Source: a virus | DNA length: 35,369 nucleotides | Virus record (IMG/VR): IMGVR_UViG_3300023179_000287 | Location: 1 to 35,369 of that record | Reading direction: 5' to 3' (one strand) | Part shown: positions 28,631 to 35,369 of the stretch, one piece after another | Layout: the number at the start of each line of letters is the position of its first letter | How positions within the stretch are numbered: the first letter of the stretch is position 1 | The notes under the pieces: generated by a model | What the model saw: only the letters and a program-made list of their open reading frames with translations | What the model was told of the DNA's origin: nothing | Database searches by the model: none | Program-made: the position numbers and the translations under genes

Positions 28631-30031
28631 TTAGTATTTTATTCCTGAAAAATCTCTATTTCTCTTAAAAACAGTATTCATAGATGATTCAAGATCTTCG
28701 GGATTTAATGTTATACCGGAATCCGACAATCCCTTTTGTGCAGTTTGTTCTAAATCATACAATTTCATTTTTGCTCTATCTATACCTATAACAAATCTTT
28801 TATTTGTTGTTGGATCATTATATCTATTCTTTAACTGTTTTACCATTAACTGATTCATTTGTTCTAGTTCTTCAGTTGTAATAAGAGCAAACATTAAATC
28901 AACAGTAGCGGGTAAACCAAAAGATTCGGAAGTATCTGTAAGCTCTACATCAGTATTGCCATACCCTCCTCTTGTAGTTTGTGTTGCGCTCAAAATAGGA
29001 ACATTGTTTTCGACAGCAAGTCCTCTTAGTTCTTCTGCTATGGCTTTAATTAAAGTATAAGAGTTAATATTAGCACCAGCTTTAAATCTAGATGATGCAC
29101 AAATATTTAGATAATCAACAATAATTATATCCGGGGAAAATTGCTTTTTTAATTTAAGTTCATTTAATAATAAACTAAAGTGACCTACATGCGCACTAGC
29201 AGTAGGATATTCCTTGATAATTAATTTACCTTGTGTTTTACTTTGGATTTTTTCTATTCTGTTTTTGAATATAGGTTTTGGTAAATCTCTAAGCTGATCT
29301 AAAGTGATGTTCATAAGATTAACATCTATTCTTTCAGCTATTCTTTCCTCAGCCATTTCCAAAGTAATATACAATACATTTTTGCCTTGGTTCAACACCG
29401 ATGCTGCAACATGACACATGAATAAAGATTTTCCAACACCTGTACCAGATAGCACCACATTTAAAGTTTTATTCGGTAGACCACCATTTGTAATTTTGTT
29501 GAACATTTCCAGATCAAATGCTATTCTAGATTCTACTTGATGATAGAACTCAAATCTATCATCGGCATTTTCAATATAATCATGCCCAACCTTTTTATCA
29601 AAAGTTACACCTAATGCAGTTTGTAGGAGTTGGGGAATGCCATCTGTAGACAAGTTTTTATCCCGCCCATCTATAATCGCAATTGAACTTAGAATTGCAT
29701 TATAGATAGCTTTATCTTTACAAAATTTCTCTGTTTGTTTTTCTAACCATACGTCATCAGGATTATTATCTACTAATGTTTGTATAGTTTCAATTACTTC
29801 CGTATACTGATCCTCACTTAAACTTTTATCATTTTGTGCATAAATGATAAGAGCATCAGTATTGGGTCTATTATTGAATTCAGATACGAAATCCTGTATA
29901 TACTTAAAAACTTTTAGATCTGTTTGAGAGGTAAAATATTCCTGTTTTAAAAAAGGAAATACTTTACGCATATATTTTTCATTGTTGATTAAATTCGCTA
30001 GTATCAGATTCTCTATTGTTATCAAACTCAT
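28631..30031 (-). CDS. 41: Replicative DNA helicase (DnaB-like, T4 gp41 homologue)
   Basis: The protein has 466 residues. I chose ATG 30031, which has AGGG about nine bases upstream, over a TTG one codon earlier. The N-terminal 150 residues are the primase-interaction domain. The RecA-type core has Walker A GTGVGKS (about residues 196-202), Walker B IIIVDYLNIC (about 303-312), and the H3/H4 region ENNVPILSATQTTRGGYGNT. The FVIGIDRAKMKLYDLEQT region follows. It unwinds the parental duplex 5' to 3' as a hexamer at the T4-type fork, with the primase gp61. The length is close to T4 gp41 (475). The start lies 53 bases inside the upstream gene, so it is likely coupled to it. The fork module order (polymerase, uvsX, this, 41) matches T4-like phages. 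Confidence 0.92.
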   Translation of the reverse strand: MSLITIENLILANLINNEKYMRKVFPFLKQEYFTSQTDLKVFKYIQDFVSEFNNRPNTDALIIYAQNDKSLSEDQYTEVIETIQTLVDNNPDDVWLEKQTEKFCKDKAIYNAILSSIAIIDGRDKNLSTDGIPQLLQTALGVTFDKKVGHDYIENADDRFEFYHQVESRIAFDLEMFNKITNGGLPNKTLNVVLSGTGVGKSLFMCHVAASVLNQGKNVLYITLEMAEERIAERIDVNLMNITLDQLRDLPKPIFKNRIEKIQSKTQGKLIIKEYPTASAHVGHFSLLLNELKLKKQFSPDIIIVDYLNICASSRFKAGANINSYTLIKAIAEELRGLAVENNVPILSATQTTRGGYGNTDVELTDTSESFGLPATVDLMFALITTEELEQMNQLMVKQLKNRYNDPTTNKRFVIGIDRAKMKLYDLEQTAQKGLSDSGITLNPEDLESSMNTVFKRNRDFSGIKY

Positions 30032-30281
30032 CAATCGCCCTTTTTAAAATATCATTTAATATTTTTTCCATTAATGAATTAAATTCTATAGAATTGAATT
30101 CTCGTTCAGGCAAACCAGAAGTCTTATTAATGAAATGAAAATCTAAAGTCATCATTCCCTCATGATCGGGTTCAAAATCTAAAGTATCAATACTAATGAT
30201 GGTATCTTTGAATTTTCCCCCAGTAAATTTTATACCCCATGCCTTTTCATTGAGATGCCAGGGTTCATATTGAACTTGCAT
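29979..30281 (-). CDS. Conserved phage protein between uvsX and helicase
   Basis: The start is set at ATG 30281, which has AGGAG about eight bases upstream; an in-frame codon 15 bases earlier is unsupported. This gives 100 residues: MQVQYEPWHLNEKAWGIKFT, GGKFKDTIISIDTLDFEPDH, then MMTLDFHFINKTSGLPEREF and a helical C-terminus. Small proteins of this form between uvsX and the helicase gene recur in T4-like marine phages, so conserved position hints at a replication or recombination role, but I know no function. It overlaps the end of uvsX by 17 bases and the start of the helicase by 53 bases. Confidence 0.65.
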   Translation of the reverse strand: MQVQYEPWHLNEKAWGIKFTGGKFKDTIISIDTLDFEPDHEGMMTLDFHFINKTSGLPEREFNSIEFNSLMEKILNDILKRAIDEFDNNRESDTSEFNQQ

Positions 30282-31335: not shown

Positions 31336-32133
31336 CTAAAGTACAATTTGCCATGGTTTTCTAGTTTCTATTGGATTAATTTTACCATCGATTATCATTC
31401 TATCTGTACTTCTAATGTATTGATGATAATAAAATTCATTATTTTCCATTGGAAGAACTTCAATCAAGCTTCTTAAAGAGGATTCCATAACATGAATTTG
31501 TTTTGCGTTTTGTAGAATGGTTCCGAAATAGAACATATTTTCACCTCTGTCATTATAAATGATCTTATAGTTTTTGTCATTAATTTTGGCAACCTTATTC
31601 ATATCCATTGAATAACCGCGTGAAGCATCATCTAAAATAAAAATGTAATCCTCATCATTTGGATTTAATTTATTAAACACTCTATTCTCTTGTTGCATGT
31701 CTCGAGAATAGTAACAACTTATAAATCTATGTTTCCAATCAATATTCATATAATCATAAAAACATTTTTGTAAAACATCTATAGTTTGTTTTTCTAAAGT
31801 AGTCCAAGCTACTTGATAGTATTCCATACCAGGTTTAATTAAATCATCATATGGTTGTCCAGGCAAAACATCGTGCCCTATAATGTATACTGTAGCTGGA
31901 TTCGTATTTTGAATAATATATCTTATTGCATAATATTCGCCACCTGAAGGTATACCTACTACCTTTATACGAGAATCATCTCTAAACATAAACTCTACCA
32001 TACTTTGGTATTGTTGCCAAGCTGTTACATAAATGATATCTAGTTTATGTTCAACTAACAATCTTCTTGTCATACCATTGAACACCACATGATCACCGAT
32101 ACCTAGGGCATGTGTTAAAACTCCTACTCTCAT
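31336..32133 (-). CDS. GT9-like putative glycosyltransferase
   Basis: The protein has 265 residues. The N-terminus MRVGVLTHALGIGDHVVFNG MTRRLL resembles the GxGDxxxxxP/G nucleotide-sugar fold start of family 9 glycosyltransferases (LPS heptosyltransferases). Later HVMESSLRSLIEVL could be the C-terminal glycine-poor equivalent of the donor-binding motif. It is shorter than cellular heptosyltransferases (about 350), so one domain may be reduced. It overlaps the DNA polymerase stop as ATGA, which couples its translation to the polymerase C-terminal part. A glycosyltransferase in the replication core is unusual; it could be cargo. The assignment is by motif and is moderate. Confidence 0.5.
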   Translation of the reverse strand: MRVGVLTHALGIGDHVVFNGMTRRLLVEHKLDIIYVTAWQQYQSMVEFMFRDDSRIKVVGIPSGGEYYAIRYIIQNTNPATVYIIGHDVLPGQPYDDLIKPGMEYYQVAWTTLEKQTIDVLQKCFYDYMNIDWKHRFISCYYSRDMQQENRVFNKLNPNDEDYIFILDDASRGYSMDMNKVAKINDKNYKIIYNDRGENMFYFGTILQNAKQIHVMESSLRSLIEVLPMENNEFYYHQYIRSTDRMIIDGKINPIETRKPWQIVL

Positions 32134-33098
32134 GAAAATAATCCCTCTAGACTTGCCTTAGGTTTAGCTTGCCAACCTATACCATTAAGAATAGTATTCA
32201 TTGGTTCTAAAAAGGCTTTTTCAAACATAATATCATAATCAGTATATTTTTTTAAATTTAATTCCTCTGGAATAGAGGAAACAAATGCTATACAATTTTC
32301 CCCAATTGTATTTGGTTCTTTTAGATATAAAAATTTAATCTTATCACCTTCACGGATTAGTTCATATTTTTTATCTAATTTCTTTTCTTTGAGATAATGA
32401 TTGTACAATAGTGAACCTCTGACATGCATTGGGGTGCCCTGTTTATAAATTGATGCTCTGTCAGTATACTTTTCTACACCATTGACGCTTCGAGGAAATG
32501 CAATATCTTCTGGTTTATATTCTTTAAATTTTTCCTCAAACTCTTTTACAAATTTCTGTAGATAAGCTTCGTTTTTAGTTAAAACTAATTTAACCGCTTC
32601 TCTTAAACCTTCTCTAATTGTTTCAGGAGTAGAGGATCTAACAACCTCTAGTCCCATAACTTTCAATTTAGGTTCCTTATATTGAACACCCTCATTATTG
32701 TATACATTTAAAGCGTATCTTTTCTTTGCTACCCAAATGCCTCTTTCAGCAATTACTTCTCGTTTAAAGTATACTTTTCTTTCAAAGGCGTTGGTATAAG
32801 ACATGAGCTCATCGCATGCCTTGTTGATAACTTTTTCAATTTTTTCTGTACAAATTTTATCAAGTATCTCAACAACTTTATCGGAAGGTAAATCCCTATA
32901 AAATTTTTTAACTAAATTATCCAACGTAATGTAGCATGCATCAGTATCAGAATAAAAAGAATAAGTAAAATTGTTAGTACCGCATATCTTATTAAGATAT
33001 TCATTTAATGCTTTACCTACGGTTCTAATTATATACTGTCCTGTAATAGTAATACCCTCAGCTATTCTATCATCATAAAATCTAAAGTATTCGTTACC
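32130..33098 (-). CDS. 43: DNA polymerase gp43, C-terminal piece (motif C, palm and thumb)
   Basis: The frame is open from GGT at 33098 to the stop at 32130, 322 residues. It starts GNEYFRFYDDRIAEGITITG and continues QYIIRTVGKALNEYLNKICG to motif C, FYSDTDACYI, with both catalytic Asp of DTD. WVAKKRYALNVYN, LKVMGLEVVRSSTPETIRE and the C-terminal KASLEGLFS all match T4 gp43. The end corresponds to the clamp-binding tip of gp43. The first recognised start in frame is TTG at 32924, beyond motif C, so independent initiation would give an inactive protein. There is no ATG or GTG between 33098 and 32927. The piece therefore needs to be joined to the frame ending at 33103. See the bypass element at 33096-33108. 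Confidence 0.85.
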   Translation of the reverse strand, partial: GNEYFRFYDDRIAEGITITGQYIIRTVGKALNEYLNKICGTNNFTYSFYSDTDACYITLDNLVKKFYRDLPSDKVVEILDKICTEKIEKVINKACDELMSYTNAFERKVYFKREVIAERGIWVAKKRYALNVYNNEGVQYKEPKLKVMGLEVVRSSTPETIREGLREAVKLVLTKNEAYLQKFVKEFEEKFKEYKPEDIAFPRSVNGVEKYTDRASIYKQGTPMHVRGSLLYNHYLKEKKLDKKYELIREGDKIKFLYLKEPNTIGENCIAFVSSIPEELNLKKYTDYDIMFEKAFLEPMNTILNGIGWQAKPKASLEGLFS

Positions 33099-33108
33099 TT
33101 AGTTAACC
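33096..33108 (-). other. Candidate 10-nt translational bypass (GGT-TAACTAA-GGT)
   Basis: On the minus strand the sequence is CTT GGT, then TAACTAA, then GGT AAC GAA. The take-off codon is GGT (33108-33106), immediately followed by stop TAA (33105-33103) and then C-TAA (33102-33099), a second stop in the frame in which the downstream piece is read. The matched landing codon is GGT (33098-33096). Joining take-off to landing restores ALG-NEYFR, the motif B/fingers join of T4-like polymerases, with no residue lost. A +1 shift runs into TAA at 33101-33099. A -1 shift runs into stops 40 bases on. A 10-base insertion or an assembly error would look the same. This is inference; the sequence pattern itself is directly seen. 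Confidence 0.55.
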
Positions 33109-33237
33109 AAGCGCACCGAAAAGACTATTGAGTTGAATTTTTCTAGCCATTTGATAATTATTCAAACTAGAAATTTTCTTCTCAGTGTCTTTTCGAAGCG
33201 CTTGCAGTTCCTCCATAGAAAGATTTTTAAGGTTCAT
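33103..33237 (-). CDS. 43: DNA polymerase gp43, middle piece (motif B)
   Basis: A 44-residue frame from ATG 33237 to TAA 33103: MNLKNLSMEELQALRKDTEK followed by SSLNNYQMARKIQLNSLFGA LG. Residues 33-41 are motif B (KIQLNSLFG), the KxxxNSxYG element of the fingers that binds the incoming nucleotide. The ATG has AAAGGG upstream, so this piece has its own initiation site. It looks like the start of a second polymerase gene (43B in T4-like phages with split polymerases), followed by the bypass candidate and the C-terminal piece. In T4-like polymerases this segment directly follows the palm part ending the first piece, with a variable linker of about 20 residues. Confidence 0.75.
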   Translation of the reverse strand: MNLKNLSMEELQALRKDTEKKISSLNNYQMARKIQLNSLFGALG

Positions 33238-33262
33238 ATTTTCCCTTTGCAACGTTCAAAAT

Positions 33263-33284
33263 GCCATCTTTTCATATTGATGGC
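33263..33284 (-). other. Hairpin in the polymerase gap
   Basis: GCCATC at 33284-33279 pairs with GATGGC at 33268-33263 around a 10-base loop, followed by ATTTTG. It lies in the 82-base gap between the stop of the first polymerase piece (33320) and the start of the second (33237). It could be a weak terminator, an attenuator, or a remnant of an inserted element; it is short and not strongly supported. Confidence 0.5.
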
Positions 33285-33319
33285 GGTTTCTGTTTTATCA
33301 TAAATTTGTTTTCATAATG

Positions 33320-34777
33320 TTATGATCTTCTTCGTATTTCTTCTTCTATTAACTGCATCTCTTTTTGAGCAGCAATCATCAACTTCTTATACTTTTGTCG
33401 GTCATCAAATAATTTTTGTACAATCTCAGGAAAAATTCCCTGCTTGTCGGTTTTAAATTTATAACCATTAGCAGCCATACAAAGTTTATCTTTTTTCAAT
33501 ACATCGAGGGAATGCTCTTTGTTTATTAATGTATTGACCGTTACATCTGCGCCATTGGGAATAATAGTTTCAGGAGACATATTATATTGCATAATAATAC
33601 TTGGGTATAGACTTGTAGCATCAAAAGATACTACCCAATCATATTTGCCAGGTACAGGTTCTTGAACAAATGCTCCTTCAATTTGTCTGCCTTTTCTATT
33701 CTCGTCTCTTTGATGAACTACAATATTTTTCTTCCACAACTGATTAAATAGTATACAATCCCATGTTCGAACAGCCGAGAAAATATCTACATAATTACAT
33801 TTCGCATCATATGCCATTGTAAGAATAAGTTCAATCAACTTCATCTTATCCTCAAGTTTATCTACAATTTCAGTATCTACTACGTTATACTCGACAAACT
33901 TCTGCCAATTATTTTTATAGAACATTCTAAAGGATTCATACTCACTATAATCTAATTTTTCCTTACCCAATTCTACTTTAGCAATGTGATCCAATCTATA
34001 GGATTCTTGAGCATTGTATGTGAATTTCTTATACAAATCTAAATAATCTAAAATAGAAACACCCATTAGATCAAAAACAATTTCAATTTTTTTAAATCTG
34101 GATATCTCTTTTTGGTTGACAATTCCCCATGGTGATAATTGTTTAAGAGAATCCTCCCCTAGAACCTTTTTTATTCTATTAGCTAGGTAGGGGATATCGA
34201 AAAACTCTATATTCCAACCAGTGACAATATGCGGATAATTATCAGACCAGACACCTATAAACTTTTTCAATAGATCGTATTCATCATCGCATCTTATATA
34301 TGTATGGTTTTCTTTTGAAACCTCAAAATATTTAGTACCAAATGTGGTAATATTTTTACTATTATAATCTTGAATAGAGATTAACAATACTTCTTCTAAA
34401 GGATCATTGGTATCAGGAAATCCAAATTCTGCAGACGTTTCAATATCTATAGAATAGATTTTGAGTTGTGTCATATCAAAATCTATATTCTTTGGAAAAG
34501 TTTTAGTGATGTATTGGTATGCAAAATTAGTATTACCAAATATTGGAAATCCTTCTACATCTTTGTATCTTTTAACAAAATCCTTAGCCTCATTTATATC
34601 TTCAAATTCAATTGATTCAAGATTTTGTCCAAATATTGATTTATATTCTGTTTGTTTTTGGCTTTTAACAAATAGAGTGGGCGAAAAATGTATTTTATCT
34701 TGAACAGATTTGCCATCATTAATGCCACGAACAAGAATTTTGTTACCAAATTGCAATACATTGGTATAGAAACGCAT
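33320..34777 (-). CDS. 43: DNA polymerase gp43, N-terminal piece (exonuclease and motif A)
   Basis: The protein has 485 residues. Family B exonuclease motifs are Exo I D111-I-E113 (YSIDIETSAEFG), Exo II N189 with F193-D194 (WNIEFFDIPYL), and Exo III Y297 to D301 (EYNVVDTEIV). Polymerase motif A is D386 in SFDATSLYPSIIMQYN. The end (QKYKKLMIAAQKEMQLIEEE IRRRS) reaches the palm/fingers region. Everything for proofreading is intact, but motifs B and C lie in the next pieces. The arrangement is like the split 43A of some Aeromonas T4-like phages. GGAGG sits six bases before ATG 34777. Joined, all three pieces give about 850 residues, normal for the family (T4: 898), so no part is lost. Confidence 0.9.
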   Translation of the reverse strand: MRFYTNVLQFGNKILVRGINDGKSVQDKIHFSPTLFVKSQKQTEYKSIFGQNLESIEFEDINEAKDFVKRYKDVEGFPIFGNTNFAYQYITKTFPKNIDFDMTQLKIYSIDIETSAEFGFPDTNDPLEEVLLISIQDYNSKNITTFGTKYFEVSKENHTYIRCDDEYDLLKKFIGVWSDNYPHIVTGWNIEFFDIPYLANRIKKVLGEDSLKQLSPWGIVNQKEISRFKKIEIVFDLMGVSILDYLDLYKKFTYNAQESYRLDHIAKVELGKEKLDYSEYESFRMFYKNNWQKFVEYNVVDTEIVDKLEDKMKLIELILTMAYDAKCNYVDIFSAVRTWDCILFNQLWKKNIVVHQRDENRKGRQIEGAFVQEPVPGKYDWVVSFDATSLYPSIIMQYNMSPETIIPNGADVTVNTLINKEHSLDVLKKDKLCMAANGYKFKTDKQGIFPEIVQKLFDDRQKYKKLMIAAQKEMQLIEEEIRRRS

Positions 34778-34908: not shown

Positions 34909-34932
34909 TTTAACGAAAACTAGGAGATGCAT

Positions 34933-35369
34933 ATGTTTAGAGCATTGATCGTTTTACTTTTATTTTTTTCTTCCTTTGTTTATTCTCAGACAAATACCAG
35001 TACACAAACAACCAATGGTGGCACTACTACCAGCACAACAGGTTTAATTAATCAAGGTGGATATGATGGTGGCAAAAGTTTAGTTGACACCAATTCTACC
35101 TCTAATAGTACCAGCACTGTAACAACCAATAATAATAGTGTAAGTACAACTAATTCCGTATCCACCAGTACAGTTAACAGTAATTCAGTTAATACAAATA
35201 ATAACAACAGCACTAGTACCAGTGTAAATACCAATAATAATGTACAAAGTGGTACAGTTACCAACAACAATAACAATAACTTAACTGGTTCAGTAACCTA
35301 TACTAACAACAACAATAACGTTAGTTCTGGTTCAATGACATATAATAATAACAATGTCAATTCAGGAAC
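34933..35369 (+). CDS. Secreted Asn/Thr/Ser-rich repetitive protein (partial)
   Basis: The only convincing plus-strand gene. ATG 34933 has AGGAG six bases upstream. The first 18 residues (MFRALIVLLLFFSSFVYS) are a signal peptide with a likely cleavage before Gln19. The mature part is low-complexity Asn/Thr/Ser: NTSTQTTNGGTTTSTTGLIN, then NQGGYDGGKSLV, then repeats like VTNNNNNNLTGSVTYTNNNN. A unit of about 16-18 residues (NNNNxVxSGxxTYxNNNN) recurs towards the window end, so the protein continues beyond 35369. The pattern suits a cell-surface or beta-solenoid fibre, perhaps amyloid-like, but no family is recognised. A phage-encoded exported protein could alter the host surface or block other phages. 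Confidence 0.75.
   Translation, partial: MFRALIVLLLFFSSFVYSQTNTSTQTTNGGTTTSTTGLINQGGYDGGKSLVDTNSTSNSTSTVTTNNNSVSTTNSVSTSTVNSNSVNTNNNNSTSTSVNTNNNVQSGTVTNNNNNNLTGSVTYTNNNNNVSSGSMTYNNNNVNSG

Follow-up and report, generated by a model that had tools for sequence, protein, structure and literature searches.

It is likely that the essential DNA polymerase gene (gp43) of the T4-related phage studied here, and of several distant uncultured relatives, has been invaded by a GIY-YIG homing cassette, the 10-nt insert of which is crossed by a ribosome hop. In the genes carrying this insert, ribosomes would most probably have to hop over the ten bases; we infer from sequence that they do so, how efficiently, and that the insert serves in self-protection. 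The window, i.e. the whole stretch of DNA analysed, comprises 35,369 nt (positions 1-35,369 of the IMG/VR virus record IMGVR_UViG_3300023179_000287), with the polymerase on its minus strand.

A polymerase gene broken twice

The gp43 of the window is a T4-type family-B polymerase in its split form. The gene is broken twice, by a gp43A/gp43B split 135 nt upstream of the insert and by the insert itself, and comprises the following features.

33320..34777, minus strand: gp43A, exonuclease and first half of the polymerase, 485 aa, C-terminus EMQLIEEEIRRRS before the stop (Pfam DNA_pol_B_exo1 and DNA_pol_B; phrog_262 positions 7-495; split-form family phrog_2062)
33234..33311, minus strand: C-terminal remnant of a GIY-YIG homing endonuclease, end TETAINMKRWHFERCKGKI before the stop (aligns with the C-terminus of the intact endonuclease of contig L002)
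33243..33248, minus strand: AAAGGG, likely ribosome-binding site of gp43B (from the sequence)
33103..33237, minus strand: first ORF of gp43B, 44 codons, starting with ATG, ending with the take-off Gly and closed by TAA (MNLKNLSMEELQALRK...NSLFGALG and stop; phrog_1918 positions 12-54; phrog_262 positions 492-528)
33106..33108, minus strand: putative take-off codon GGT (Gly, gp43B codon 44; GGT, GGA or GGC in other carriers)
33099..33105, minus strand: coding gap TAACTAA (consensus TRA-N-TAA across four lineages)
33103..33105, minus strand: frame-0 stop TAA, within the coding gap
33099..33101, minus strand: +1-frame stop TAA, within the coding gap; beyond the gap, the polymerase homology continues in this +1 frame
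33096..33098, minus strand: putative landing codon GGT, within TAAGGT (GGT in 9/9 hop loci)
32940..32948, minus strand: DTD codons of motif C (no in-frame ATG, GTG or TTG from the landing site to here)
32130..33098, minus strand: distal part of gp43B (GNEYFRF... to the stop), 322 codons including the landing Gly (phrog_262 positions 528-851; phrog_1918 positions 54-380)

On the minus strand, the codons GGT GCG CTT GGT are followed by TAACTAA and then by GGT AAC GAA TAC TTT AGA. The sequence-only reading from which this analysis started had reported GGT-TAACTAA-GGT at 33096-33108, where it is indeed present on the minus strand; the exact 13-mer occurs once in the window. What that reading held about the frames is borne out: the gap blocks both frame 0 and frame +1 with a TAA, in the upstream and downstream frames respectively, while the -1 frame stays open for about 15 codons and ends at a TAG, so that a simple +1 shift, -1 shift or readthrough is ruled out in the window by the stops in those frames. 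The absence of ATG, GTG or TTG before motif C was also correctly noted, the first such in-frame codon after the landing site being at codon index 58 and motif C (SDTD), which lies downstream of the gap, 50 codons past the landing glycine. Homology likewise resumes without a lost residue, as claimed: on the phrog_262 profile the 44-aa piece ends at 528 and the C-terminal piece begins at 528, and on phrog_1918 the two pieces meet at position 54, which means that one glycine is common to both. Taken in order, the profile matches (phrog_2062 and phrog_1918; phrog_262 at 7-495, 492-528 and 528-851) cover the whole polymerase.

The same reading took the rest of the polymerase to be intact, which is wrong: gp43A and gp43B are separate genes here, and a decayed endonuclease lies between them. 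This remnant, which ends in MKRWHFERCKGKI and a stop, fills the roughly 80 nt between the two genes; its stop overlaps the gp43B start as ATGA, and the gp43B start (ATG 33237) is in a frame other than that of gp43A (end 33320). Other T4-related phages are known to have gp43A and gp43B divided at this position, and the split form has its own PHROG families. The second split, with an endonuclease remnant upstream of the insert, makes the parallel with T4 gene 60/mobA closer.

Some neighbouring observations can be recorded here. A suspected break in the DnaB-like helicase of the window (28631-30034) was rejected, the frame being ordinary. In another contig (L007), a DnaB-like helicase gene downstream of a recA/uvsX-like gene has an apparent intein-like interruption with its own stop, possibly a split intein. 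At the end of the window (34927-35367, plus strand), a repetitive ORF rich in Asn, Ser and Thr, with a signal-peptide-like start, runs off the contig.

Recurrence and mobility of the insert

An exact pattern search of IMG/VR found GGT-TAACTAA-GGT in four further polymerase contigs (L002, L003, L004 and L005). A search with free stops, in which the length was fixed and the two stops were required only to be T-purine-purine, so that other gap lengths would be missed, added GGA-TGACTAA-GGT in L312 and GGC-TGAATAA-GGT in L311, L313 and L314. With the window, the 10-nt element is thus found at the same codon boundary in nine hop loci, with the consensus GGN-T(A/G)A-N-TAA-GGT-AAY. These represent four deep polymerase lineages (the window clade, L005, the L311 type and L312), the C-terminal pieces of which are 45-53% identical. 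The gap is 7 nt long in all four, the frame-0 codon after the take-off is a stop (TAA or TGA) in 9/9 loci, and the +1-frame TAA is kept in every lineage. Take-off and landing codons are GGT/GGT in the window and L002-L005, GGC/GGT, read by the same tRNA through wobble, in L311, L313 and L314, and GGA/GGT, matching in two bases only, in L312. The constancy of the 7-nt gap, the stop, the +1 TAA and the landing GGT at 45-53% identity is the trace expected of selection on a recoding signal.

Other matches to GGN-TAACTAA-GG in IMG/VR had no polymerase context and were set aside as chance, as were both matches from a scan of bacterial genomes; the broad pattern TAACTAAGG gave about 100 matches, with polymerase context only for four that were already known. 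No carrier was found in the collections of cultured phages, in which the closest isolates are uninterrupted. Vibrio phage vB_VmeM-32 (KU160494) was rejected as a carrier: a tblastn gap suggested an interruption, but its GALG site, and with it motif B, is intact. The annotation divides its gp43 into five pieces, and genes resembling homing endonucleases lie within and beside it.

The sequence-only reading had expected close relatives with an uninterrupted site to speak against a hop. Such relatives do exist, as 153 of the 167 scored polymerase loci with the site are uninterrupted, but they do not overturn it, since interrupted genes turn up again and again in lineages of their own. The 10 nt are precisely what is missing from intact relatives, and alignments of isolate cyanophages to L312 show a deficit of exactly 10 nt. 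Carriers and intact genes are intermingled on the polymerase tree, even inside the window clade.

At the place of the window remnant, L002 has a complete GIY-YIG endonuclease gene of 265 aa with the same C-terminus (PF01541, E 3.7e-6). An intact GIY-YIG gene also lies between gp43A and gp43B in L312; it shares 42% of residues with its L002 counterpart over 170 aa and gives a weak match to PF19835 (E 8e-4, below cut-off). Remnants are present in the window, which retains a C-terminal stub only, and in L003 and L004, and the C-terminal stub of L311 and L314 (KGKGKNWRCIKK) resembles the end of the L312 endonuclease (RGKAKGWLCIKK). No endonuclease trace was seen in L005, in which gp43A and gp43B overlap as ATGA. 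The intact genes and stubs of L002, L312, L311 and L314 point to one GIY-YIG endonuclease family tied to one kind of insert, and the nuclease of the cassette is assigned by its sequence to the GIY-YIG homing endonucleases (Seg type). In the comparison of the window with L002, L003 and L004, the flanks are mostly 60-90% identical at the DNA level, but identity rises to 95-100% (for L002 rather less, 85-98%) between roughly 180 nt upstream and 35 nt downstream of the insert. The 44-codon piece has a synonymous distance of 0-0.35, while the sequences flanking it exceed 1.4. This near-identical tract between diverged flanks is the mark of co-conversion by homing.

How the two parts of gp43B may be joined

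The proposed cassette would consist of the GIY-YIG endonuclease gene, the gp43B start and, within the codons of motif B, the 10-nt insert (TAACTAAGGT). Having split the gene into gp43A and gp43B, the endonuclease would later have decayed in the window, while the insert, parting GALG from NEYFR, probably gives resistance to the endonuclease; this self-protective role would follow the published view of gene 60 (PMC5009743). Translation of gp43B would begin at ATG 33237, and the ribosome would stall with peptidyl-tRNA-Gly on GGT and the stop codon in its A site. The peptidyl-tRNA-Gly may then let go and re-pair with the second GGT ten bases on, with AAC as the next codon, to yield a single gp43B of 365 residues, the partner of gp43A. 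Judging from the codons, P-site tRNA-Gly has no re-pairing in the +1 frame (GTT, GAT or GCT), in which a slipped ribosome would run into TAA one codon later, while re-pairing at +10 is possible, and the only single translational event predicted to join the pieces is a 10-nt bypass with tRNA-Gly re-pairing at the landing GGT. The take-off site lies 44-46 codons from the gp43B start in the carriers, compared with codon 46 in gene 60, which suggests a similar length of nascent chain in the tunnel.

Both polymerase pieces are under strong purifying selection. Among the window, L002, L003 and L004, dN/dS is 0.07-0.09 for gp43A and 0.054-0.081 for distal gp43B, with dS > 1.4 for both; synonymous divergence from the window has reached saturation in L005, and the L311 and L314 polymerases, identical over the compared part, give no dN/dS. 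As dN/dS is low on both sides while the endonuclease decays (its gene is shortened by most of its length in the window, L003 and L004, i.e. 3/4), the polymerase pieces appear to be in use and the insert to be no mark of a dying gene. An error of sequencing or assembly, or a polymerase gene that is dead, could be suspected from the loss of frame, the decay of the adjoining endonuclease and the uninterrupted state of most relatives; given this selection and the presence of the element in eight other contigs from different metagenomes (the assemblies L313 and L314, themselves from different metagenomes, are identical over 4,957 nt), it is very improbable. The sequence-only reading had itself named two such alternatives, of which assembly error is excluded because the insert recurs in independent metagenomes, and a random 10-base insertion in decay is contradicted by a conserved pattern in four deep lineages and by strong selection on both sides. 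Removal of the 10 nt from the RNA, instead of skipping by the ribosome, would result in the same protein, and no result of the analysis favours it. It is hardly credible in view of both the known systems and the length of the insert, since 10 nt is too short for a ribozyme and we know of no intron or editing system that removes 10 nt.

It is also unlikely, if less so, that the insert is a homing-protection scar which is left uncrossed, so that ribosomes would initiate distal gp43B internally, either on a non-standard codon or at a later site, and the polymerase would be assembled from three pieces. The TAAGG ahead of the distal piece resembles a ribosome-binding site, and split polymerases are viable, 43A and 43B of Aeromonas phage 25 being active and co-purifying (PMC2988022). 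Possible in-frame starts (TTG, GTG or ATG) lie between the gap and motif C in L005, L311 and L312, which makes internal initiation possible there; however, the window, L002, L003 and L004 have no ATG, GTG or TTG before motif C, the candidate starts of the other lineages are at differing positions, and the conserved 7-nt gap, stop and landing GGT would be left unexplained. If the ribosome shifted to +1 at GGT-TAA and then read through the second TAA, three residues (N-X-G) would be added; this route would lead to the right frame, and sister gp43B genes do have a +1 site, CTT-TAA-C (see below). It is nevertheless improbable, as it requires two rare events, the first by a tRNA-Gly that is unable to re-pair in that frame; the +1-frame TAA is, contrary to expectation, kept in four lineages, and the product would carry an insertion in the invariant motif B.

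A minimal gene 60-like hop, as the sequence-only reading had proposed, is the best-supported reading, the bypass being suggested by recurrence, the conserved pattern and purifying selection. Synthetic stop-hops are generally inefficient. The polymerase is catalytic and needed in modest amounts, so even a hop of low efficiency may be enough. Only one family-B polymerase is present on the 112-kb contig that holds L004, although carrier contigs are fragments and a second polymerase could lie elsewhere. None of the gene 60 stimulators (the KKYK signal, the strong take-off and 5' hairpins, and GAG six nt before the landing site) is evident around the site. A KKYK-type nascent-peptide stimulator is absent from the 44-aa leader, which resembles the leaders of split gp43B genes without a hop. 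For most stretches, folding is no better than after shuffling, and L005 folds differently; a weak CUUGG-UUAA-CUAAG hairpin (z -1.4) is not dominant in longer folds or in L005, and as a stimulator RNA structure looks weak and not conserved.

A parallel candidate +1 site and known recoding systems

A pattern search prompted by the locus L078 found CTT-TAA-C between KV[SQCG]L and NSAYG of gp43B in 16 loci (12 distinct sequences); loci with CTT-TAA-C, all in split phage DNA polymerases, are L078 (=L319), L315-L325 and L327-L331. These gp43B genes have one base more than intact genes and the same kind of leader as the hop loci. The arrangement AAAAAGGTG-NNN-CTT-TAA-C is present in 16/16 loci. In the release-factor-2 gene (prfB), the frameshift site consists of an SD-like hexamer, one codon, CUU, a stop and C. 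The gp43B arrangement matches this geometry and is a candidate +1 site. AAGGTG is found in 12/12 distinct carriers and 0/15 distinct intact comparators (Fisher p 6e-8, ignoring relatedness). The nuclease upstream, in the three loci checked, is DUF559/Vsr-like with a helix-turn-helix, unlike the GIY-YIG enzyme, and the case for recoding at the window site gains strength from two unrelated nucleases that are each paired with a separate recoding site in codons of one invariant motif. We lean slightly towards the generalisation that gp43 homing cassettes carry their own recoding as self-protection, a 10-nt stop-hop at GALG|GN with GIY-YIG and a CTT-TAA-C +1 shift at KVSL|NSAYG with DUF559/Vsr-like nucleases, so that the target in motif B would be destroyed and the protein restored. 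In L328, gp43A is also interrupted upstream, at about 997-1560 on the reverse strand of the locus, by a second endonuclease ORF, which is HNH-like, and this polymerase looks to be split more than once. No report of a hop or a +1 site in gp43 was found in the literature, in a search that omitted most subscription journals.

Nearly all that is known of programmed bypassing in bacteria and phages comes from T4 gene 60, of which shorter matched-codon counterparts have long been expected; the 2016 review lists no natural in-frame stop-hop (PMC5009743). If true, the gp43B site would provide such a counterpart, short and natural, of the gene 60 hop and a minimal comparative system, with natural variants from four deep lineages, for finding the required signals. 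Gene 60/mobA would then exemplify a general strategy in which selfish nucleases settle in invariant codons of essential genes and recoding keeps the host alive.

Among split gp43A/gp43B genes, those of Aeromonas phage 25, Acinetobacter phage PhT2, S-H34 and S-CREM2 share the split position and a related gp43B leader with the window, with 44 residues to the shared Gly in S-H34 and S-CREM2, as in the window. GALGNxYFR is uninterrupted in gp43B of S-H34, S-CREM2 and PhT2, as seen here, and in that of phage 25 according to the literature. In the cyanophages S-H34 and S-CREM2, gp43A and gp43B are separated by short ORFs, 246 and 297 nt. Synthetic E. coli stop-hops also use matched codons around a stop over a very short distance, but they span 9 nt and specify one residue (PMC5009743), whereas the hop in the essential gp43B would span 10 nt and land in a different frame. 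The byp elements of Magnusiomyces capitatus mitochondria are likewise short inserted nucleotide blocks crossed in translation; they differ in being read by mitochondrial ribosomes at 81 sites, with little context dependence and several without perfectly matched codons (PMC5009743).

The closest likeness is to T4 gene 60/mobA, which has a Gly take-off codon followed by a stop, a matched Gly landing codon (PMC5009743, PMC3014915, PMC2988022), a homing endonuclease gene that lies immediately upstream and divides an essential gene of replication, and an insert absent from relatives and thought to protect from the endonuclease. It differs in its 50-nt gap, against a 7-nt gap and a 10-nt displacement in gp43B, in lying in a topoisomerase gene instead of a DNA polymerase gene, and in its endonuclease, mobA being HNH and the gp43 cassette GIY-YIG. 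Gene 60 bypassing was called apparently unique among T4-related phages in 2010 (PMC3014915), whereas the putative gp43B hop site is found in four deep lineages. The gp43B site would work like gene 60 while being new in gap length, gene, endonuclease and visible signals.
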